From: a virus
DNA: 22,932 nt
IMG/VR virus record: IMGVR_UViG_3300020125_000460
Location: 1-22,932 of that record
Direction: 5' to 3' (one strand)
In this document: in pieces, positions 817-22,932 of the stretch
Layout of the letters: every line of letters starts with the position of its first letter
Numbering within the stretch: position 1 is the stretch's first letter
Program-made: the position numbers and the translations under genes
Notes under the pieces: generated by a model
What the model was told of the DNA's origin: nothing
The model's input: only the letters and a program-made list of their open reading frames with translations
The model's database searches: none

Positions 817-1839
817 TCACCGCATCTCCCCTTGGGCCATCGACAGCTGCTGCGGCGCGGGATTGCGCGCGGACGAGGTCGTCCAGTTGTGGGCCACATC
901 GCGGAAGGTAACCGGGCGCAGGCGGCTCCCGAAGGCGCCGATGTTGGTTTCCCAGGCAGGCAGCAGGTCCTTGACCTTCTTTCCTTGCTTGCGCCAGCGG
1001 TCGTTGACGATGTCGACGACGGCCAGTCCGAACGTGTTGCCGCGGGTGCCGACGTCGACACGCTGCCAGATCGAAGCCGCGCGGTCATACCAGGCATTCA
1101 GCCCGACGGCGCCGACCATGCGCGCAACCTCGGTCAGCTCTACCTTGTCGGCGTAGCGCACCCAGAACCCCAGGATGCCCTCGAGCTGCATCTCGCCATA
1201 GGCGTCGCGCTCCGGGCCGAAAGCGGTGGTCAGGAAGCCCAGTACCCAGTCGAGTGCCTCGGCGCCGCCGCGGGCGTAGATCCATTCAATCCTGGCCACG
1301 GCCTGAATCTTCCCATCAGCCTTGGCATACGCACCGTTGACCTCGAGGTCGTGCTTCGCGGCGATCTCGACGATGTGCAGTGCTGCCTTGTCGCCGGCGA
1401 CCAGCTTGGAGCGGAACCTGGTCCAGGGCGTCTGGCCTAAGACCGTCCCAAGCTTGACGTACAGGTCAGCCTCCTGGGCCCGCTCGAGCCCGCTGTGGAC
1501 CATCGCCGGTAGCTGCAGCATTCCCTTCTCGTACGCGACGACGCGGCGATGATTGCCGTCAATTACGAAGAGCGTGTTGTCGGGCCTCCTGGAGATGGTC
1601 AGCGGCGAGACAGCCAGCGGATCCCATTCCACTCTGAGCTGCTTCAGGCGCGATTCTGACAAAGGCCTCGCGTACCCCTGACCGTGAGGCGGCGCGTAAT
1701 CGACATTGAGGGTCGCCACGTGCACCCTCTCAAGCTTGTAGGTCGGTAGCTTGAATGGGTGCCGCCGCACCAGCTCTCGGGCTTCAGCCTCACCCTCTGC
1801 GTCGTCCAGATCGTCCATGCGTCGTTGCTCTACAGCCAC
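817..1839 (-). CDS. ParB-like (DGxHR) protein, DUF6551-like
   Basis: The 340-residue protein begins with GTG at 1839-1837, preceded by AAGGGAG at about 6 nt, a clear ribosome site; the later ATG at 1818 has none. The N-terminal half carries a ParB/Srx-fold signature: GYARPL at 55-60, then FVIDGNHR at about 91-98, which matches the DGxHR element. A helical C-terminal region follows. The same layout (GYARPL, VIDGxHR, then LY.K.G...QTP..R) is found in the protein at 7121-8284, so the two are paralogues; this one lacks the other's C-terminal zinc motif. ParB-like phage proteins of this type are thought to be DNA-binding or nuclease-like, but the activity of this family is not established. It heads the leftward operon. 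Confidence 0.8.
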   Translation of the reverse strand: MAVEQRRMDDLDDAEGEAEARELVRRHPFKLPTYKLERVHVATLNVDYAPPHGQGYARPLSESRLKQLRVEWDPLAVSPLTISRRPDNTLFVIDGNHRRVVAYEKGMLQLPAMVHSGLERAQEADLYVKLGTVLGQTPWTRFRSKLVAGDKAALHIVEIAAKHDLEVNGAYAKADGKIQAVARIEWIYARGGAEALDWVLGFLTTAFGPERDAYGEMQLEGILGFWVRYADKVELTEVARMVGAVGLNAWYDRAASIWQRVDVGTRGNTFGLAVVDIVNDRWRKQGKKVKDLLPAWETNIGAFGSRLRPVTFRDVAHNWTTSSARNPAPQQLSMAQGEMR

Positions 1840-2489: not shown

Positions 2490-3974
2490 ATGCAGTTCGA
2501 ATCGACCCGAAATTGGTTGGACCGAACGTCTGCCATGGTACTGAGCCAGTACGACGAGCGTCTCGCTCGTCCCGACCGTCCGCATCTCAATGTCGTCACG
2601 CCGCAGCGCGCCGTCGGCGTCATCCGCGTCTCGAAAGTCGGCAAACGCAAGCTCAAGGGCGAGGAGCATTTCGTCTCCCCGCGCGAGCAGGAGGCAAAGC
2701 TTTCTGAGTGGTGTAAGTCGCAGGGCATCACCCTGACCACCGTTCACAAGGAACTCAATGTCTCGGGCAAGACGCCGCTGGCGAAGCGCACAGGCTTGCG
2801 GCCGGCCATCGAGCAGATAGAGCGCGGTGGCGCCGACATTGTCGTCGTCGCGTACTTTGACCGACTGGTGCGCTCGCTTGCGATTCAGGCCGATGTCCTC
2901 GAGCGTGTCGAGAACGCCGGCGGCAAGGTCGTGGCGCTGGACATCGGCGAAGTCACCAACGAGACCGCCGCGTCCTGGCTAAACGCGACGCTGCACGGCT
3001 TGATGGCTGAATACCATGTCCGCATCACCCGCGAGAAAACCGATGTCGCCCGTCGCGATGCGGTCGCGCGCGGCGTCCCGCCTTTTCCCAACCTGCCGCC
3101 TGGGTATGTCAGGAACACGAGCGGGCAGCTCGTTCCCGTCGATAAAGAGGTGCCTGTCGTGATCGAGGTATTCAGGATGCGCGCCGATGGCGCCTCCCTG
3201 ACGCAGTGCCGCGACTACATGCGCGAGCATGGTATTGACCGTTCTTACCGCGGAACGCAGACGATGTTCTCGAACCGTCTGTACCTGGGGGAGATCCACG
3301 TCGGCAAGTTGGTCAACTTGATGGCCCATGCGCCCATCATCGATCGAGCGTTGTTTGAGCGTGCTCGCGACCGGGTTACGCCGCGAGGGCGGCCATCGAA
3401 ATCAGAGCGGCTCCTGGCCCGCGTGGGGGTGCTGGTGTGCGGCAGTTGTGGTGCGCGGATGACGAATGCCAATGTCTGGAACCGCACCATGAAGAAAGCC
3501 AAGGGTGGCTCTCGTCGCCGTTATGCGCTGTATCGCTGCGGCATGCCTGGTGACTGCCCGTCGCCGGTGACCATTTCCGCAACCCTGGTCGAAGACGCCG
3601 TCGAGCGTGAGGTGCGCCAGCGCCTGATCAACAAGGCGGGCTCAGCCAGTCTGGAACAGGAGATCCGTGGTGCTGCTGCCCAGGCAGATCAAGCGCAGAG
3701 GCGGCTCAAGAATGCCATTGCCCTGCTCACCGGGGACGATCTGGATGATCTCGAGGAGGCGCAGGCGAGGCTTGCAGAGATGCGTGTGGCTGCGCGCGTT
3801 GCGGCTGACCGATACGAGCAGTTGAAGGGCTCAACGGAGCCGCTGACCGTCTTGTCGGCGACTCATGACTGGGAAGAGCTGACTGTGCCTGAGCGACGCG
3901 CCCTTATCCGCGCCGTGCTGCGCCGCGTTGAGATCCACCCCGCTTCTGTGGGAGATCGGATTCGGTTTTACTGA
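2490..3974 (+). CDS. Large serine recombinase (phage integrase)
   Basis: The 494-residue protein has the large serine integrase layout. The resolvase-type catalytic domain has the nucleophile serine in VGVIRVSKVG (S48) and the arginine motif FDRLVRS (123-129). A Recombinase domain follows (about 195-300), then a zinc ribbon with C317, C320, C350 and C356, a coiled coil near 390-440, and a short C-terminal segment. It would catalyse site-specific integration and, with a directionality factor, excision. The first 39 residues precede the catalytic domain. The start is uncertain: ATG 2490 has no ribosome site, ATG 2535 is an in-frame alternative, and the good AAGGGAG site serves an out-of-frame ATG at 2479. 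A promoter, a dyad and a downstream terminator frame the gene as a single unit. Confidence 0.92.
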   Translation: MQFESTRNWLDRTSAMVLSQYDERLARPDRPHLNVVTPQRAVGVIRVSKVGKRKLKGEEHFVSPREQEAKLSEWCKSQGITLTTVHKELNVSGKTPLAKRTGLRPAIEQIERGGADIVVVAYFDRLVRSLAIQADVLERVENAGGKVVALDIGEVTNETAASWLNATLHGLMAEYHVRITREKTDVARRDAVARGVPPFPNLPPGYVRNTSGQLVPVDKEVPVVIEVFRMRADGASLTQCRDYMREHGIDRSYRGTQTMFSNRLYLGEIHVGKLVNLMAHAPIIDRALFERARDRVTPRGRPSKSERLLARVGVLVCGSCGARMTNANVWNRTMKKAKGGSRRRYALYRCGMPGDCPSPVTISATLVEDAVEREVRQRLINKAGSASLEQEIRGAAAQADQAQRRLKNAIALLTGDDLDDLEEAQARLAEMRVAARVAADRYEQLKGSTEPLTVLSATHDWEELTVPERRALIRAVLRRVEIHPASVGDRIRFY

Positions 3975-4098
3975 GCCGCTCTTCCAGGATGCGTCGCGCG
4001 GCGGCGTCCAGGATGCGCTGCACCTCGGCGTCGGCCTCCGGCGGTAACGTCGGCGGCACGTAGTCAGGGTCGACGGTGAACGGCTTGCGCAGGGGCAT
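3904..4098 (-). CDS. Possible 64-aa antisense small protein
   Basis: A leftward frame begins MPLRKPFTVDPDYVPPTLPP, continues with a helix (EADAEVQRILDAAARRILEE) and ends in a basic tail. The first 45 residues look protein-like, but the last 71 nt overlap the recombinase in antisense, and the start codon lies inside the terminator stem at 4092-4123. There is no convincing ribosome site. It may be a chance frame. Confidence 0.3.
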   Translation of the reverse strand: MPLRKPFTVDPDYVPPTLPPEADAEVQRILDAAARRILEERLSKTESDLPQKRGGSQRGAARRG

Positions 4099-4127
4099 GC
4101 ACCACGAGTGTGGGGCATGCCCCTTTT
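4092..4127 (+). terminator. Intrinsic terminator of the recombinase gene
   Basis: GGGGCATGC (4092-4100) pairs with GCATGCCCC (4115-4123). Inside, CCAC and GTGG extend the stem around a GAGT tetraloop. TTTT follows immediately. This is a strong rho-independent terminator 118 nt after the recombinase stop. Confidence 0.85.
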
Positions 4128-4135
4128 GCTGCGGT

Positions 4136-4164
4136 GCTCAAACGCTCAACGCCCGTCGATTGCG
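4136..4164 (-). repeat. 29-bp element, copy 1 (inverted)
   Basis: Read on the minus strand this copy is CGCAATCGA, six variable bases (CGGGCG), then TTGAGCGTTTGAGC. It is inverted relative to copies 2 and 3 and forms the left edge of the PAS-gene cassette, just after the recombinase terminator. Confidence 0.7.
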
Positions 4165-4217
4165 CGTTTGCGCCTCCGGGGTAATCACGCAGGGTGGGTA
4201 GCCGGCACTCGGTGAGG

Positions 4218-4244
4218 TTGTACTGAGTAGGGGACGGTTACAAT
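4218..4244 (+). promoter_or_regulatory. Promoter candidate for the PAS gene
   Basis: TTGTAC (4218-4223) and TACAAT (4239-4244) lie 15 bp apart, slightly short. The -10 hexamer is the same as that before xre. The predicted transcription start, near 4250, coincides with the first bases of repeat copy 2. Confidence 0.4.
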
Positions 4245-4248
4245 CGTG

Positions 4249-4277
4249 CGCAATCGAATTGAATTGCGTGTTTGAGC
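4249..4277 (+). repeat. 29-bp element, copy 2
   Basis: CGCAATCGA, then ATTGAA, then TTGCGTGTTTGAGC. It differs from copy 3 at 4 of 29 positions, three of them in the six-base centre. It sits at the predicted transcription start of the PAS gene, an operator-like position. Confidence 0.75.
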
Positions 4278-4345
4278 GCCCTGGGGCCGTGCAGGGGCGT
4301 AGAACATCCAATAGATAACTGACGGGCTGAAGGGGGCTTCGGGCC

Positions 4346-5308
4346 TTGTACCGCGATACGGCCGAACAACTCACATGCATCATCCTCGATGACGGAGTTG
4401 GGACGCTCCGTGGCATCAGTCAGGATTTCTGCGAGCTTCTGGGTTACCGCAACGAAGAGATGGTCCACACGCCGGCCAGCGCCTGGTTTCGGCCTGGTCA
4501 GGGGGAGAATTGCGGCGGGGACGATCAGCTTCGGGATCTGTTCGCAAGAGCCAAGGACACGCCTGGCGTGGTGCACCGCGCAGCGACGTGGGTGCCGACC
4601 AACCGCGGTGCTGGTCGTATCGGCGTGACCGTGGAAGTTCAATACACCGCGGACTATGGCGGCGCCTGGATTGGGGACGCGGTCAGGCTTGACTACCTGC
4701 CGGGGTTCGATACCACGCCGGTTCGACGCGTGCCCCAGGACCAGGCCGCTCTGGCTGTTGCACAGCTCACGGCGTTGATCGCGCAGGTCACCGATCAGCC
4801 GTATGCGAACCACGGCGACTACCTGGACGGTATGGAACGCGCACGGCGGCTCGAGGACGCTGTACGGCGGCTCGAGCAGCTCGAGGAGAAGGTCGACCAG
4901 GCGCTTCGCGTCAGGGGCCAGGCGGTGCAGCTTGATCTGGGCTTTGGGCTCAAGGCTGTCAAGGGCCGCAAGCAGCCGCAGACAAAGTACGGCCGCACGC
5001 CTGAGGAGTTCACTGAGGGGCTGCACCATTCGTTTGATTGGATCGGCGAGCATGAGGACGAGGAACCGACCATGGAAAACGTGGGCTTGCACTGGTGGCC
5101 AAAGCCGATCACGTCGGGCACGCTGCGTACAGGCCTGGAGAAGCATGGCTTTGTGCCCAAGGAGCACAGCGGCCGTGACTGCGCAGGCGTGGTGAAGCGC
5201 CTGTTCCAGGAGTACCACGGGCGCATGGAGGTCGCCGCAGCCTTCATCATCACGACCGGCTGCAACATGCTCCACCTCGGATTGCACCACTACCTGATGC
5301 GCTTCTGA
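4346..5308 (+). CDS. PAS-domain protein, probable sensor or regulator
   Basis: The 320-residue frame can only start at TTG 4346 (an in-frame TGA lies at 4328), with AGGGGG about 10 nt upstream. Residues about 10-118 resemble a PAS sensor domain: CIILDDGVGTLRGISQDF followed by CELLGYRNEE matches the usual PAS opening. A coiled coil spans about 163-190. The C-terminal part (215-300) contains a Trp-rich segment (NVGLHWWPKP, then TSGTLRTGLEKHGFVP) that could be a DNA-binding or partner domain but is not recognised. No kinase or cyclase domain is visible. The gene stands alone, between a terminator and a terminator-like hairpin, and between inverted 29-bp elements, which suggests a separately acquired regulatory gene. 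PAS proteins are uncommon in phages. Its ligand and output are unknown. Confidence 0.7.
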   Translation: MYRDTAEQLTCIILDDGVGTLRGISQDFCELLGYRNEEMVHTPASAWFRPGQGENCGGDDQLRDLFARAKDTPGVVHRAATWVPTNRGAGRIGVTVEVQYTADYGGAWIGDAVRLDYLPGFDTTPVRRVPQDQAALAVAQLTALIAQVTDQPYANHGDYLDGMERARRLEDAVRRLEQLEEKVDQALRVRGQAVQLDLGFGLKAVKGRKQPQTKYGRTPEEFTEGLHHSFDWIGEHEDEEPTMENVGLHWWPKPITSGTLRTGLEKHGFVPKEHSGRDCAGVVKRLFQEYHGRMEVAAAFIITTGCNMLHLGLHHYLMRF

Positions 5309-5319
5309 CTGGTCAGCCA

Positions 5320-5348
5320 CGCAATCGAATTCGGTTGCGCGTTTGAGC
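5320..5348 (+). repeat. 29-bp element, copy 3
   Basis: CGCAATCGA, then ATTCGG, then TTGCGCGTTTGAGC. The first 20 bp are an 18-of-20 palindrome centred on CGAATTCG. It lies between the PAS gene and the RHH gene, and its last 10 bp (GCGTTTGAGC) are the exact inverse of the outer end of copy 1, so the two bound a 1,213-bp unit. Confidence 0.75.
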
Positions 5349-5374
5349 ACCACAAGCCAATTCTGGCGATGCAT

Positions 5375-5399
5375 CCTCGGCCGACATGCCGAGGATTTT
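5375..5399 (+). terminator. Terminator-like hairpin spanning a start codon
   Basis: CCTCGGC (5375-5381) pairs perfectly with GCCGAGG (5388-5394) around a 6-nt loop and is followed by ATTTTTATT. It has the form of an intrinsic terminator for the PAS gene, yet the loop and 3' arm contain the ATG (5386-5388) of the RHH gene. It may therefore act as an attenuator or as a hairpin that hides the start codon. Confidence 0.6.
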
Positions 5400-5553
5400 T
5401 ATTGAGATCACCAAGGCAGAGCAGGCCGAGGTGTATGACCGCGCGAAGCGGGAAGGTGTCGCCCCGGGCACGCTGGCGACCTGGCTGTTCCGCGAGAAGC
5501 TCGCAGAGCTGAAGCACGAGCCGCCCGAAAACAAGCTCGAGCAGGCGGCGTAG
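5386..5553 (+). CDS. Ribbon-helix-helix-like small regulator
   Basis: This 55-residue protein begins MPRIFIEITKAEQAEVYDRA, then KREGVAPGTLATWLFREKLAEL. A short basic beta strand, a helix, a Gly-containing turn and a second helix match the ribbon-helix-helix (CopG/Arc) pattern. Members of this fold bind DNA as dimers through the strand. There is no clear ribosome site; the ATG is embedded in the hairpin at 5375-5394. It is the first gene of a seven-gene operon ending at 7048 and is followed 3 nt later by the next start. It is a candidate to bind the CGCAA/TTGCG dyad of the 29-bp elements upstream; that link is inference. Confidence 0.6.
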   Translation: MPRIFIEITKAEQAEVYDRAKREGVAPGTLATWLFREKLAELKHEPPENKLEQAA

Positions 5554-5556
5554 GCC

Positions 5557-5898
5557 ATGACCACCACCGACGACCAGGGCATCGCCATGCCCGATCTCGA
5601 CGGCATCGAGTGGCTCAACGCTGACGACGACGAGCGCGTGGTCCTGACGGACCGCGAGTGCATGTTCATCCGGAACGCGTACCGCGATGGCTATACCGAC
5701 GGTCACGGCGCTGGATACAAGGCCGGCGGCTACGACGCCATGCGCGCCGCGACGGCGCTGACGACGCTGCTGAGCAACCCGCTGTGGCAGCGCAACATCG
5801 AGCTGCTGGCGCATTTCGCCGACATGGAGACAGCGCCGAAACGTTCATCGGATCGTCCGCAGGCCAAGCTTTGGCCTGATCCAGTGGGGGCGTCCTAG
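5557..5898 (+). CDS. Hypothetical 113-aa protein
   Basis: The gene starts 3 nt after the RHH stop and its TAG shares a base with the GTG of the next gene. The product is acidic at its N-terminus (MTTTDDQGIAMPDLDGIEWL) and has a central DGYTDGHGAGYKAGGYDA segment, a Gly/Tyr-rich repeat-like stretch seen in many small phage proteins without assigned function. There is no membrane segment. The role is unknown. Confidence 0.7.
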   Translation: MTTTDDQGIAMPDLDGIEWLNADDDERVVLTDRECMFIRNAYRDGYTDGHGAGYKAGGYDAMRAATALTTLLSNPLWQRNIELLAHFADMETAPKRSSDRPQAKLWPDPVGAS

Positions 5899-6302
5899 TG
5901 GCGGCGCTGTTGGGCTTCGTCATGTTCGCCCAGGCGGTGTGCAGCGGCAGCGATGTGTGCGTCGACGTGCCCGCTGTCGAGACTCCTGCGGTCGACGAGG
6001 CCGCTGTCGACGAAGAGACGCCGGTGGTGGTCGTGCCCGCCTGCGACATGCCGATCTGCGGTGCGCTGGGCGCCCGCCTGTATTGCATCGAAGGCCTCGA
6101 GTCTCGCCACTACGGTGGCGCCGTCAATCCCTACAGCGGTGCGCGGGGGTACCTCCAGTGGATCGGCTCAACGGCAAGAGCCTGGGGCGTGGTCCCAGGC
6201 AACAGGCAGTCCGAATGGTCAACCGCGGCGCGCATGCTGGCTACCAGCGGCGAGGCGTTCTTTCGGTCACAGTGGCCGGTCACCGCGAGACTCTGCCCCT
6301 GA
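5898..6302 (+). CDS. Secreted lysozyme-like transglycosylase (Rpf/SLT type)
   Basis: This 134-residue protein starts with GTG overlapping the previous TAG. A hydrophobic N-terminus (MAALLGFVMFAQAVCSG) may be a signal or anchor, followed by a Val/Asp/Pro-rich linker. Residues 60-134 match a lysozyme-like fold: CIEGLESRHYGGAVNPYSGA then RGYLQW, with E68 as the likely catalytic acid, and a closing segment FFRSQWPVTARLC. C63 and C133 are placed as in the disulfide of resuscitation-promoting-factor-like domains. It would cleave peptidoglycan. Its location in the early small-gene operon, next to a one-helix membrane protein, rather than with tail genes, is unusual: lysis or lysogeny-related wall remodelling are both possible. 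Confidence 0.7.
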   Translation: MAALLGFVMFAQAVCSGSDVCVDVPAVETPAVDEAAVDEETPVVVVPACDMPICGALGARLYCIEGLESRHYGGAVNPYSGARGYLQWIGSTARAWGVVPGNRQSEWSTAARMLATSGEAFFRSQWPVTARLCP

Positions 6303-7048: not shown

Positions 7049-7061
7049 CTCTGTATGCACG

Positions 7062-7090
7062 CGGCACCCCACTGGGGTGCCGTCTTTTTG
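7062..7090 (+). terminator. Strong intrinsic terminator
   Basis: CGGCACCCC (7062-7070) and GGGGTGCCG (7074-7082) form a perfect 9-bp stem with a 3-nt loop, followed by TCTTTTTG. It separates the small-gene operon from the replication operon. No obvious new promoter lies in the 30 nt that follow, so partial read-through or antitermination may feed the next operon. Confidence 0.9.
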
Positions 7091-7120
7091 TCCGCCCTAC
7101 ACACACACCAGAGGTGCTGT

Positions 7121-8284
7121 ATGCGAGTTCTAGAGGCACCGGCGGCATCCCAGACCTATCCCGCGGAGGTGGTTCGCGGGACGTTCTTCGAGCACGACGT
7201 GCCGCTTTCAAAGATGTTCGTTCACTTCCGAACTGAGTCAGGCGGCTACGCCCGACCACTGCGCCCGTGGCGCGTCAACAAGCTGATGTCGGAGTTCGAC
7301 CGTCAAGCGCTCGGCGTCATCTTGCTGTCGATGCGCAATGACGGGACGTTTGCCGTGATAGACGGCCAGCATCGCAAGGACGCCGCGGAGCGTATGGGCC
7401 TGACGGCCATGGACGCCCTGGTCTTCATCGATCTGAGCCTGGAGGACGAGGCGCGCCTGTACCGCAAGTTCGGCGACTACCTGAAGCAAACTCCGTTCGA
7501 CCGCTACCACGCCGGTGTCGCCGAGCGGTTGCCTGAGTATCTCGGCATCCAGCGTGTGCTCCACGAGCTGGGCCTGCACGTGCCGCACATCGCGGGCGGC
7601 GGCCTGCACGGGGTGGACGCTGTGGACGCGCTGGTCAAGGTGGCCACCACGTACCGCCTCGAGGGCCTGAACAACGCGCTGCGCCTGCTGTTCGACGCCT
7701 GGGACGGCGAGCCGCGGGTGTACCGCAGCCTGACCATCATCGGCACGGCCATGTTCCTGGCGCGCTTCCAGGACCATCCGTCCTTCAACCGCAAGCGCCT
7801 GATCACGCGCATGAAGCGGGAAGGCCTGAGCAAGGTTGAGCGCCAGGCGTTCGTCATCCGCGACGCCAACCTGGCACCCAACCCGAACTCCGGCTGGGGC
7901 CAGGCGCTGCTGCAGCTGCACGACAAGGGCCAGCCGCCGGGCAACGAACTCGGCGAGTGGCCAAAGCGGCACCTGTCCGAGGTGGTCGTCGCGAAGATGG
8001 CCGCGACCATGCGCAAGACCATCGCGGCCATGACGCCCGAGCAGCGCTCGGCGATGGCGTACAAGGCCAACGCGGCACTCACGCCTGAGCAGCGCAGCGA
8101 GCGGTCGGTCAAGGCCAATGAGACGCGGCGGAATGGATCGGGCGCAGTGAATCCCCGCATGGTGAAGTGCCGCATCTGCCGCGCCGGCGTCGGGCAGACG
8201 TGCATCACTGACGCCGGCCGCCGCGCCAAGGCTTCGCATCGGGTTCGGTACGAAGATGCGCTGGCCGGTGGCGGCGCGCACTAG
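7121..8284 (+). CDS. ParB-like (DGxHR) protein with C-terminal zinc motif
   Basis: ATG 7121 has AGAGGTG 7 nt upstream; a frame back to 7055 would translate the terminator and is rejected. The 387-residue product carries GYARPL (42-47) and FAVIDGQHR (77-85), the ParB/Srx-like DGxHR signature, and LYRKFGDYLKQTPFDRYH as in the paralogue at 817-1839. Near the C-terminus are two TPEQRS repeats (residues about 307-338) that resemble NUMOD3-type DNA-binding repeats, then CRICRAGVGQTCITDAGRRA with a following SHRVR, a small zinc motif common in actinobacterial phage proteins. It is probably DNA-binding. As first gene of the replication operon it may help initiation, partition or nucleolytic processing; the activity itself is not known. 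Confidence 0.8.
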   Translation: MRVLEAPAASQTYPAEVVRGTFFEHDVPLSKMFVHFRTESGGYARPLRPWRVNKLMSEFDRQALGVILLSMRNDGTFAVIDGQHRKDAAERMGLTAMDALVFIDLSLEDEARLYRKFGDYLKQTPFDRYHAGVAERLPEYLGIQRVLHELGLHVPHIAGGGLHGVDAVDALVKVATTYRLEGLNNALRLLFDAWDGEPRVYRSLTIIGTAMFLARFQDHPSFNRKRLITRMKREGLSKVERQAFVIRDANLAPNPNSGWGQALLQLHDKGQPPGNELGEWPKRHLSEVVVAKMAATMRKTIAAMTPEQRSAMAYKANAALTPEQRSERSVKANETRRNGSGAVNPRMVKCRICRAGVGQTCITDAGRRAKASHRVRYEDALAGGGAH

Positions 8285-12692: not shown

Positions 12693-12926
12693 CTAGCGCC
12701 CAGCGTGGGGGAGGAACAGCGCGACGGCCAGGATGATGACCAGGAAGATCAGCAGACCGAAGATGGCGTCGTGAGTCGTCCACTTCGGCTCGTCGGGGTC
12801 GTCGATGTTGGTGATGCCGATCTTCTTGGGCGCCGGCCGCTTCTGGCGTGCGCGCCGCAGGATCTCCAGGTCTTCGGCGCGGCGAGCTTCCTGCTCGGCC
12901 TCGGACTCTTGACTGTAGGGGTTCAC
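12693..12926 (-). CDS. 77-aa protein with C-terminal membrane anchor
   Basis: GTG 12926 overlaps the stop of the HTH gene as GTGA. The N-terminal 50 residues are charged and soluble (NPYSQESEAEQEARRAEDLE). Residues about 54-73 form one hydrophobic helix (AIFGLLIFLVIILAVALFLP), a tail anchor placing the charged part in the cytoplasm. It is the last gene of the leftward operon. No family is recognised; membrane-linked exclusion or lysis roles are possible but unsupported. Confidence 0.65.
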   Translation of the reverse strand: MNPYSQESEAEQEARRAEDLEILRRARQKRPAPKKIGITNIDDPDEPKWTTHDAIFGLLIFLVIILAVALFLPHAGR

Positions 12927-13270
12927 GACGGGTGCTCCTCGAGGTACTTCAGGGCGAAGTGCAGATATGACGGGACAGCCTGGGCGCCAGACTCCCAGCG
13001 CTGCACGGTGAGCCAGTGCACGCCCAGTGTGGCAGCGAGCTGGGTCTGGGTGAGCTTGTGCGCCTTGCGCCAGGTGCGCAGCTCGACAGCGGCCTGCGAG
13101 CGGCCATTGTTGCGGTTGTAGATGTCGGCGGACTTCTGCGCCTCGGCGGCGCCGGCGCTGCTGCCGGCGAAGCACGCGACCAGGTCGCCGTTTTCGGTGT
13201 CGACCACGTACCAGGCGCCGTTTTCACGACGCGTGGCGTAGCGAGGCAGGATGATGCTGTCGGCGGTCAT
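12923..13270 (-). CDS. XRE-type HTH protein with N-terminal sensor-like domain
   Basis: The 115-residue protein starts at ATG 13270 (ATGA overlap). Residues 64-112 form a helix-turn-helix of the XRE type: LRTWRKAHKLTQTQLAATLG then VHWLTVQRWESGAQAVPSYL. The N-terminal 60 residues (GAWYVVDTENGDLVACF then an Ala-rich helix ending ADIYNRNN) look like a small alpha/beta domain seen in phage proteins with no known function. It is probably a transcription regulator acting within the phage, and is the second-last gene of the leftward operon. Confidence 0.78.
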   Translation of the reverse strand: MTADSIILPRYATRRENGAWYVVDTENGDLVACFAGSSAGAAEAQKSADIYNRNNGRSQAAVELRTWRKAHKLTQTQLAATLGVHWLTVQRWESGAQAVPSYLHFALKYLEEHPS

Positions 13271-13485
13271 CGCGACTCCCAGGGCCAGCGAAAGCTTGGC
13301 CGCCGCTGCAGATCCTGCAGGGTGGCCAGGATGCGCTCCAGGACACGCGCGTTGCTGTTGGCGTAGACCCCGAAGTCTGCGCGCAGGGCCTTGAGCGTGG
13401 TGTCGATGTCGTCGAGGCTGCTCTCAATGCGATCAAGCTGGTCGAGACGCTGCTCCAGGCGGGCCACGCGTTCCTCCAGGGTCAC
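13267..13485 (-). CDS. 72-aa coiled-coil protein
   Basis: It starts with GTG 13485 (GTGA overlap) and ends in ATGA. Heptad-like leucines run through MTLEERVARLEQRLDQLDRI and continue to about residue 62, followed by a short basic WPWESR end. A parallel coiled coil and oligomerisation are likely; function is unknown. Confidence 0.65.
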   Translation of the reverse strand: MTLEERVARLEQRLDQLDRIESSLDDIDTTLKALRADFGVYANSNARVLERILATLQDLQRRPSFRWPWESR

Positions 13486-14403: not shown

Positions 14404-14481
14404 TTTCAGGACCGGAAAGATTGCCCCGGACTTTGGACCGGGCGCCGGGCCTTCCACCGGCCAGAGCCGGTGCCATCGGTA
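14404..14481 (-). promoter_or_regulatory. Folded intercistronic leader
   Basis: This 78-nt gap (86 nt with the motif that ends it) is the longest inside an otherwise nearly gapless operon. Read leftward it contains CACCGGC-TCTG-GCCGGTG (14472-14455), a perfect 7-bp stem, then a second GC-rich hairpin around 14435-14451 (GG-CCGG/CCGG-CC) and two CCGG units. No U-tract follows, so it is more likely an mRNA leader structure than a terminator. Confidence 0.45.
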
Positions 14482-21952: not shown

Positions 21953-22932
21953 ATGCCAGATCCCATCGGGAAGAACCAGTACGGCGACGACGTCTACGAC
22001 ACGCCCAACGGAGCCAAGACCGGTACACAGATCACTCAGGAACTGCAGGCCGCCGGCTGGCAGGGTCAGGGCGATCCCGTCAGCGTCTACAACCAGACCG
22101 CAGCCGGGTCCGGAGGCGGTGGAGGATCCGGTGGAGGAGGCGGCGGGGGATCCGGTGGAGGTGGCGGTGGCGGCTCCAGCAGCGATCCATATGGTGGTGA
22201 CTACGCCAATTACCAGAACAACTCGCTGCTCCTCCAGGGCGCCAATAACGCCGCACAAGCTGCCTACAACCAGGGCATGCTCAAGTTCAACAACGACAAG
22301 CTTGCCTTTGACGCGGCGACCCAGGCGTTCAACAACGCCATCTCCGCGGCGGGGCTCACCGGCATGTACCAGGGCGCACCGACGATTCCGGCGATGCAGC
22401 AGTACGCCACCACGTTTGGTACCTGGGGGGTTCCGATACAGGGTCAGCAAACGCTGAATGCACAAAATCAGGGCTTCACCCAGCAGCAGGCGCTAGCTGC
22501 GATGTACGGCCAGTACTACGCACCGGGACAAGCCCCGACAGCCGGCATGACCACCCAGGCTGCTCAGCAGCAGGCCTGGGGCCAGCAGATGGACGCGCAG
22601 AAGCAGGCGCTGGCGCAGTGGCAGGCTCAGCAAGATGCTTCCCAGAAGTACCTGTCGATGATGGCTGGGCTGCGAGGTCCGGCTGACTGGATCCAGTACC
22701 AGAAGGTGCTCGGCGCTACACCCAACGGACTCCAGGACCTGGCCGCTGCTGCCGCCGGCCAGTATGTGCCTGGCGGCGGTGCGACGACCGGAGTCCAGCC
22801 GCAAGCCGCGAGCATGCAGAGCTTCCTGAATTCCGCCACCGGCGGCCAGTTCGGCGCTCAGCCCCAGCAGGATGCATCCCAGCAGATGCAGCCGCCGATG
22901 GGCAGCAACGCCCAGCAGACACAGGCGTTCCA
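21953..22932 (+). CDS. Gln-rich virion-operon protein with Gly-Ser linker, partial
   Basis: ATG 21953, 3 nt after the previous stop, opens a frame that stays open to the window end (326 codons). The start MPDPIGKNQYGDDVYDTPNG is followed at residues 53-77 by a run of serines separated by 5, 7 and 7 glycines, a natural flexible linker. The rest is rich in Gln, Ala, Asn and Tyr (QNNSLLLQGANNAAQAAYNQ; QQQAWGQQMDAQKQALAQWQ), with predicted long helices. It may be an internal virion or head-tail protein. The 3' end is not in the window. Confidence 0.7.
   Translation, partial: MPDPIGKNQYGDDVYDTPNGAKTGTQITQELQAAGWQGQGDPVSVYNQTAAGSGGGGGSGGGGGGGSGGGGGGGSSSDPYGGDYANYQNNSLLLQGANNAAQAAYNQGMLKFNNDKLAFDAATQAFNNAISAAGLTGMYQGAPTIPAMQQYATTFGTWGVPIQGQQTLNAQNQGFTQQQALAAMYGQYYAPGQAPTAGMTTQAAQQQAWGQQMDAQKQALAQWQAQQDASQKYLSMMAGLRGPADWIQYQKVLGATPNGLQDLAAAAAGQYVPGGGATTGVQPQAASMQSFLNSATGGQFGAQPQQDASQQMQPPMGSNAQQTQAF

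Follow-up and report, generated by a model that had tools for sequence, protein, structure and literature searches.

Three copies of a 29-bp element lie around a gene for a PAS-domain protein in the window, a 22,932-nt stretch of viral DNA (positions 1 to 22,932 of IMG/VR record IMGVR_UViG_3300020125_000460), and the question raised by this locus is whether the copies bound a mobile gene cassette or serve in regulation. The sequence-only reading had described a cassette bounded by Xer dif-like recombination sites, with a repeated operator as the alternative. The operator alternative appears probable to us (roughly 80%): a temperate serine-integrase phage would encode a single DNA-binding regulator, and the elements would be its operators, each standing directly before a promoter of the lysis-lysogeny control region.

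The 29-bp elements and the genes around them

The three copies were termed E1 (4136-4164, minus strand, the inverted copy), E2 (4249-4277, plus strand, upstream of the PAS gene) and E3 (5320-5348, plus strand, upstream of a gene for a ribbon-helix-helix (RHH)-like protein). The consensus CGCAATCGA-N6-TTGMGYGTTTGAGC matched all three with 0 mismatches and had no match in 100 dinucleotide shuffles (0/100), confirming the copies and coordinates of the sequence-only reading as exact. The best repeat pair in 3975-6174 was reached by 0/60 shuffles and 0/14 other regions of the window. The window phage is represented by three contigs (the window, G001 and G002; about 42.5 kb by overlaps). The same three copies with the same centres are present in its second contig (99.95% identity over 8419 bp); G001 gave five element matches at these three sites, both strands counted, and the same scan of G002 gave none. 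A search of other DNA with the consensus, which had been suggested as a check of the cassette idea, led back to the same phage: exact pattern scans matched only its second contig in viral_contigs and nothing in genome_contigs, very near records possibly being omitted in both collections.

The element is not symmetric about its six variable bases: 11-bp arms placed on either side of them agree at only 5, 4 and 5 of 11 positions in the three copies. A dyad of 10/11 around a 10-bp spacer was found at E1, and the best dyads of the other two copies reach 7/11 and 8/11. We read the repeated unit as a half-site, TTGMGY, which would be present once in inverted orientation and, beyond a 10-bp spacer, twice in tandem 8 bp apart. 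E1 together with 4165-4173 forms a dyad of four half-sites (4136-4173), and within the searched sequence the tandem half-site pattern occurs only at the three element places. The inverted similarity of the outer copies extends to 4130 and 5354 (35 nt, 80%), and the outer elements themselves agree at only 23 of 29 positions.

To the left of the elements, a large serine integrase is encoded at 2490-3974 on the plus strand (Pfam Resolvase 6.2e-20, Zn_ribbon_recom and Recombinase; phrog_95 integrase 2e-66). Convergent with its 3′ end is a small ORF of 64 aa (3904-4098, minus strand), a candidate first gene of a leftward unit, whose ATG lies 37 nt beyond E1; an alternative ATG, giving a 95-aa ORF, lies 17 nt beyond E1. 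That its product is a directionality factor is a guess. A 34-nt inverted repeat (4091-4124) overlaps the start of this ORF. The PAS gene (4346-5308, plus strand; 320 aa), encoding the candidate regulator, begins 68 nt after E2. E3 sits between the PAS gene and the gene for the RHH-like protein (5386-5553, plus strand; 55 aa, assigned to this fold by eye), which is the first of a rightward unit and has its ATG 37 nt beyond E3. The next ORF of this unit (5557-5898, plus strand; 113 aa) has no function assigned. The RHH-like protein generated no Pfam match and has a homologue in the related phage G010 (41% identity, phmmer 2.8e-8); the small protein at the same place in another relative, L047, generated a weak RHH_5 match (0.028). 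A terminator-like hairpin with a T-run (5373-5396, plus strand) overlaps the RHH start codon, and one such site is expected there by chance. Elsewhere in the window, a match to the Twister-P5 ribozyme at 14426-14480 (minus strand) slightly exceeded the gathering score (38.5 vs 37.6 bits), and a G-rich 12-nt unit (GGAGGCGGTGGA) is repeated in tandem at 22112-22171.

Promoter-like geometry and related phages

Each copy of the element is oriented toward the gene that it precedes, and a -10-like hexamer lies at nearly the same distance beyond each of them. The hexamers of the putative promoters are CACACT for E1 (4107-4112, minus strand; 23 nt beyond the element and 8 nt before the small ORF), GAACAT for E2 (4302-4307, plus strand; 24 nt beyond the element) and CATCCT for E3 (5372-5377, plus strand; 23 nt beyond the element and 8 nt before the RHH ATG). 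This facing of genes at near-fixed spacing speaks for the repeated operator that the sequence-only reading had offered as its alternative.

Relatives for comparison were found by TerL and primase searches of viral_contigs. A deeper alignment added nothing to the close primase set (L042-L051), and eight distant primase loci (L052-L059) were placed outside the comparison, which covered 11 phages: the window phage, L042, L043, L044, L045, L047, L048, L049 (G009), L050, L051 (the same phage as L046/G012) and G010. When the PAS, integrase and ParB-like proteins were used to query viral_contigs, only the window phage itself was returned. In genome_contigs, the primase matched 30 loci, all distant, and pointed to no host. 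In the phages collection, neither the DNA nor the PAS protein had a match, and the primase and TerL matches (11 and 308 records) were all below 60% identity. A Cro/CI-type helix-turn-helix (HTH) gene of one family is present in all ten primase-matched contigs L042-L051.

The repeat-pair shuffle test was performed for 10 of the 11 phages, L043 being omitted with its HTH gene at the contig edge. The best pair near the HTH or PAS region was reached by 0/60 shuffles in L051, L047, L042 and L050, as in the window, and also in L048, but there one member lies inside the HTH ORF; the shuffles reaching the score numbered 30/60 for L049, 7/60 for G010, 2/60 for L045 and 1/60 for L044. The score was also reached by other regions of the same locus in 0/14 cases for L042 (and for the window), 0/3 for L050, 0/13 for L048, 1/4 for L051, 2/4 for L047, 4/10 for L045, 3/14 for L044, 6/12 for G010 and 11/11 for L049. 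Since other regions reach it, the argument rests on position and geometry and not on the repeat score alone.

The element letters differ between these phages, being GGACAAA..TTTGTCC in L042 and L050, GTCAASTTGACGAATTGAC in L051 and GTAAGTCGSCRTAAATGTCGC in L047. L042 and L050 carry a trio of one inverted and two direct copies, the third copy being identical at 31/43 and 30/42 positions, and the trio surrounds the HTH gene and a gene for a 150-159 aa protein without a Pfam family. No PAS gene was recognised in L042, L050 or L047, though the element layout is present; PAS queries generated one weak match (0.028) elsewhere in L050. The sequence-only reading had named related phages with the gene but without the elements as evidence against a mobile cassette, and this is the situation in two relatives, as the PAS gene is accompanied by other repeats in L051 and by no repeat pair above shuffles in L049. 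L042 also carries two extra ORFs between E1 and the HTH gene (3642-5358), one weakly DUF6192-like (0.0012, below the cut-off) and the other of the excisionase type (HTH_17, 8e-13). The small ORF 3904-4098 of the window weakly matches the start of an HTH ORF in L044 (L044 3973-4377; EVQRILDxAARRIL), which looks as if a small protein had been fused to a repressor. The reading of the small ORF as a truncated repressor was dropped because L042, L050 and L051 have small ORFs at the matching place.

The two outer distances agree, to within one base, inside each of four phages. The gaps from E1 to the small-ORF ATG and from E3 to the RHH ATG, with start codons chosen by hand among the listed candidates, are 37 and 37 nt in the window, 38 and 38 nt in L051, 28 and 28 nt in L042, and 29 and 30 nt in L050. 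With half-site ends set after the pattern was visible, NANNNT stands 23-25 nt from the last half-site at 11/11 copies in the window and three relatives, two of which share element letters (chance 9% each), and CANNCT stands at that spacing at 8/11 copies from the four phages (chance 1.3%); these 11 copies are not independent, because L042 and L050 are related, and the count leaves out L047 and L045, where half-sites were not definable. The regulator gene of L042 and L050 has its first ATG only 3-5 nt beyond E2, ahead of the -10-like hexamer; in these two phages, translation would have to begin at a later ATG, or else the hexamer does not serve as the promoter of that gene.

A second count was made from 13 start codons, 10 of them located beyond outer elements and the other three being the RHH starts of G010, L049 and L043; it omitted the E1 copies of L047 and L045, which have no ATG-started ORF (only GTG starts were found behind the former, and no start behind the latter). 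CANNCT was present 6-8 nt before the ATG at 9/10 starts behind outer elements, versus 67/4612 ATGs and 3/380 long ORFs, and the tenth start, in L045, has CAGAGT at 8 nt. The RHH start of G010 has CAGACT at 7 nt, with a palindrome before the gene and no repeat pair above shuffles; those of L049 and L043 have GACACT at 7 nt, which is not CANNCT. The count suggests nearly leaderless mRNAs, and we read CANNCT as the -10 hexamer of their promoters. If CANNCT is the -10 hexamer, the tandem half-sites are by arithmetic centred near -42.5. The -35 boxes look poor, and a position near -42.5 would suit an activator beside a poor -35; a repressor is also possible. Comparison across these phages shows that the elements keep their position, orientation and near-fixed spacing within a common layout while their letters change.

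Candidate binders of the elements

From these features we infer that a protein binds the elements, and the genes of the region offer two candidates. The window PAS protein generated no Pfam match of its own up to E 0.1 and no HTH family, and its structural model is poor (pLDDT 38.8). The N-terminal part of the protein can be aligned with the G012 protein (blastp 3e-7; phmmer 5.9e-5), which hits PAS_9 at 1e-5, slightly under the curated cut-off (26.2 vs 27 bits). Although the model of the G012 protein has low confidence (pLDDT 46.0 overall, with block means of 48-64 over residues 51-160), its fold corresponds to that of PAS structures (best E 1.3e-5; TM, about 0.7 of target). The N-terminal PAS domain of the window protein is thus supported by homology to the G012 protein and by the fold match of the G012 model. 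A profile of the PAS protein gave nothing significant against the regulators of L042, L050 and L047 (0.2% probability). Two apparent relationships of the C-terminal part were rejected: homology to the L042/L050 regulators came from an HMM built from its own finds, and the profile that included L047 gave the 0.2% probability; a C-terminal peptide seemingly shared by the PAS and HTH proteins of G012 was withdrawn, the HTH protein ending in another reading frame.

The HTH gene of the relatives was not found in the three contigs of the window phage, where the only match to its family is a different gene (12926-13423, minus strand). This gene carries HTH_3 in the C-terminal part of the ORF, is weakly MqsA-antitoxin-like and is perhaps a second regulator; several relatives have matches to it. 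An HTH gene might be hidden, because the three contigs may not cover the whole phage genome. With no such gene seen in these contigs, elimination leaves the PAS protein or the RHH-like protein as the expected binder of E1-E3. We take the PAS protein as the first candidate and the RHH-like protein as the second.

That the RHH-like protein alone binds the elements, in Arc/CopG-like autoregulation with the PAS protein in an unrelated role, would keep the operator reading and change only the binder. RHH proteins such as MetJ form arrays on tandem half-sites 8 bp apart, and both the 8-bp spacing of the tandem half-sites and the place of E3, 37 nt before the RHH gene, suit such a protein. G010, however, has a significant RHH homologue with only the palindrome before the gene and a repeat pair within the range of shuffles (7/60), and we regard this binder as unlikely, if not negligibly so.

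With the PAS protein as binder, a wider proposal can be put forward tentatively, as one that we would not yet back over its competitors. A family of phages, probably from soil, would use a PAS-sensor protein as its own immunity regulator, and in the window phage this protein would have replaced the Cro/CI-like HTH repressor altogether. It would activate or repress three promoters, the outer two nearly leaderless, via operators of three half-sites, and couple lysogeny directly to a cellular signal, for example oxygen, a small molecule or the redox state, with operator letters turning over fully and promoter geometry fixed.

Recombination readings and known phage control regions

Inverted outer elements could in principle also flip the segment between them, so that a different gene would come to face the RHH gene. 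The PAS-HTH pair of L051 is enclosed by two inverted 31-bp elements that are identical at 28/31 positions (L051 7044-7074 and 5540-5570, corresponding to L036 11256-11286 and 12760-12790 in the G012 phage); taking the primase as reference, PAS is encoded there on the minus strand and HTH on the plus strand. Both genes have the opposite orientation in L049, and HTH is on the minus strand in L047, L042 and L050. As the inner pair of L051 is opposite between near-identical inverted elements, such elements may have served in inversion there, which is a point in favour of the sequence-only reading. In the G012 phage, both genes of this divergent pair terminate within the inverted elements, in different frames. 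Programmed inversion is opposed by the collinearity of the two window-phage contigs at this place, by the agreement between L046 and L051, which both belong to the G012 phage, and by the outer elements of the window, which match at only 23/29 positions. Moreover, one old flip is explicable by ordinary homologous recombination between inverted operators, and one such past event is the simplest account of the flipped pair in L051. Programmed inversion is accordingly rated improbable.

In Xer dif sites, a 6-bp centre separates two 11-bp arms that are inverted relative to each other. The idea that dif-like tyrosine-recombinase sites enclose a mobile module of one gene, in the manner of pdif modules, drew on the short arms around a variable centre of fixed length and on the inverted outer copies around one gene. 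Here the arms are asymmetric, with symmetry about the six bases at only 4-5 of 11 positions. A search for the Phage_integrase (tyrosine recombinase) domain was positive in 14/14 control genomes and gave no match in 6 phage records. The element occurred in only two contigs of one phage in the scans made, relatives keep the layout with other letters and no recognised PAS gene, and the copies stand in a fixed place before promoter-like sites, at a near-constant distance from the -10-like hexamers. We therefore give the Xer reading very little credence. The cassette part of the sequence-only reading found no support, and its repeated-operator part is favoured by position, orientation and promoter-like geometry.

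It is equally hard to credit that the elements are partition or replication iterons, forming a centromere of a plasmid-like phage. Two window proteins with weak ParB-like PHROG matches (7.6e-6 and 3.1e-6) would favour this, but there are only three copies, each similarly spaced from a -10-like hexamer, and a serine integrase is present. The ParB-like proteins are encoded at 817-1839 (minus strand) and 7055-8284 (plus strand), flanking the control region. Attachment sites of the serine integrase were dismissed by reasoning alone, three copies with differing centres being unsuitable.

Under the operator reading, the region would be arranged as a serine integrase gene convergent with the small ORF, E1 directed leftward to that ORF, a slot for the HTH gene, E2 directed to a regulator gene, and E3 directed to the RHH gene; in the window phage, a PAS-domain protein would take the place of the HTH protein of the relatives. 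E1 would drive the small ORF leftward, E2 the PAS gene, and E3 the RHH-led genes rightward. Every element would consist of one inverted half-site followed, after a spacer, by a tandem pair, and it stops 23-24 nt short of a -10-like hexamer; the two outer mRNAs would begin at or near the start codon. From its place beside the -35 region, the bound protein would either activate or repress transcription, and the PAS domain may couple the switch to a cellular signal.

We read the elements as phage-specific operator-promoters of a lambda-like control region. In the immunity region of lambda, outward operator-promoters flank a regulatory gene, and the OL and OR operators overlap the -10 hexamer. The window would share with it the outward-facing operator-promoters on both sides of the regulator (judged here by sequence, from the gaps, the orientation and the -10-like hexamers), a rightward unit that begins with the gene of a small DNA-binding protein (here RHH-like by eye) and operator letters that differ between related phages. 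It differs in the place of the element, which stops about 23 nt short of the -10-like hexamer and does not overlap it, in the third element before the inner regulator, and in the serine integrase; no CI-like protein was found in the three contigs of the window phage.

A phage-encoded PAS-domain protein in lysis-lysogeny control is described in PMC8284805: VqmA_Phage of vibriophage VP882 activates its own and another promoter and acts via the antirepressor Qtip. The window phage would share with it a phage-encoded PAS protein in putative lysis-lysogeny control, and it differs in that no sequence relation was found, no HTH was recognised in the window protein and no counterpart of Qtip was identified. 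No VqmA was present among sequence matches to solved structures up to E 1, with the G012 protein or a three-sequence profile as the query. In Cluster A mycobacteriophages, according to PMC6550527, stoperators are 13 bp long, asymmetric, present in up to 30 copies per genome and mostly away from promoters, and operator letters and binding specificity differ between related phages, giving heteroimmunity. On that description, the change of operator letters between related phages is shared, whereas the window has three copies, each before a promoter-like site, and not a set of stoperators. The titles and abstract openings returned by literature searches described no such control region.

If the operator reading is right, this region is a compact example of how the immunity specificity of phages evolves, in which the operator letters change while the layout, the spacing and the -10 hexamer stay. 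It would also mean that a PAS sensor may sit in a phage control region beyond the vibriophage VqmA case, in uncultured phages.
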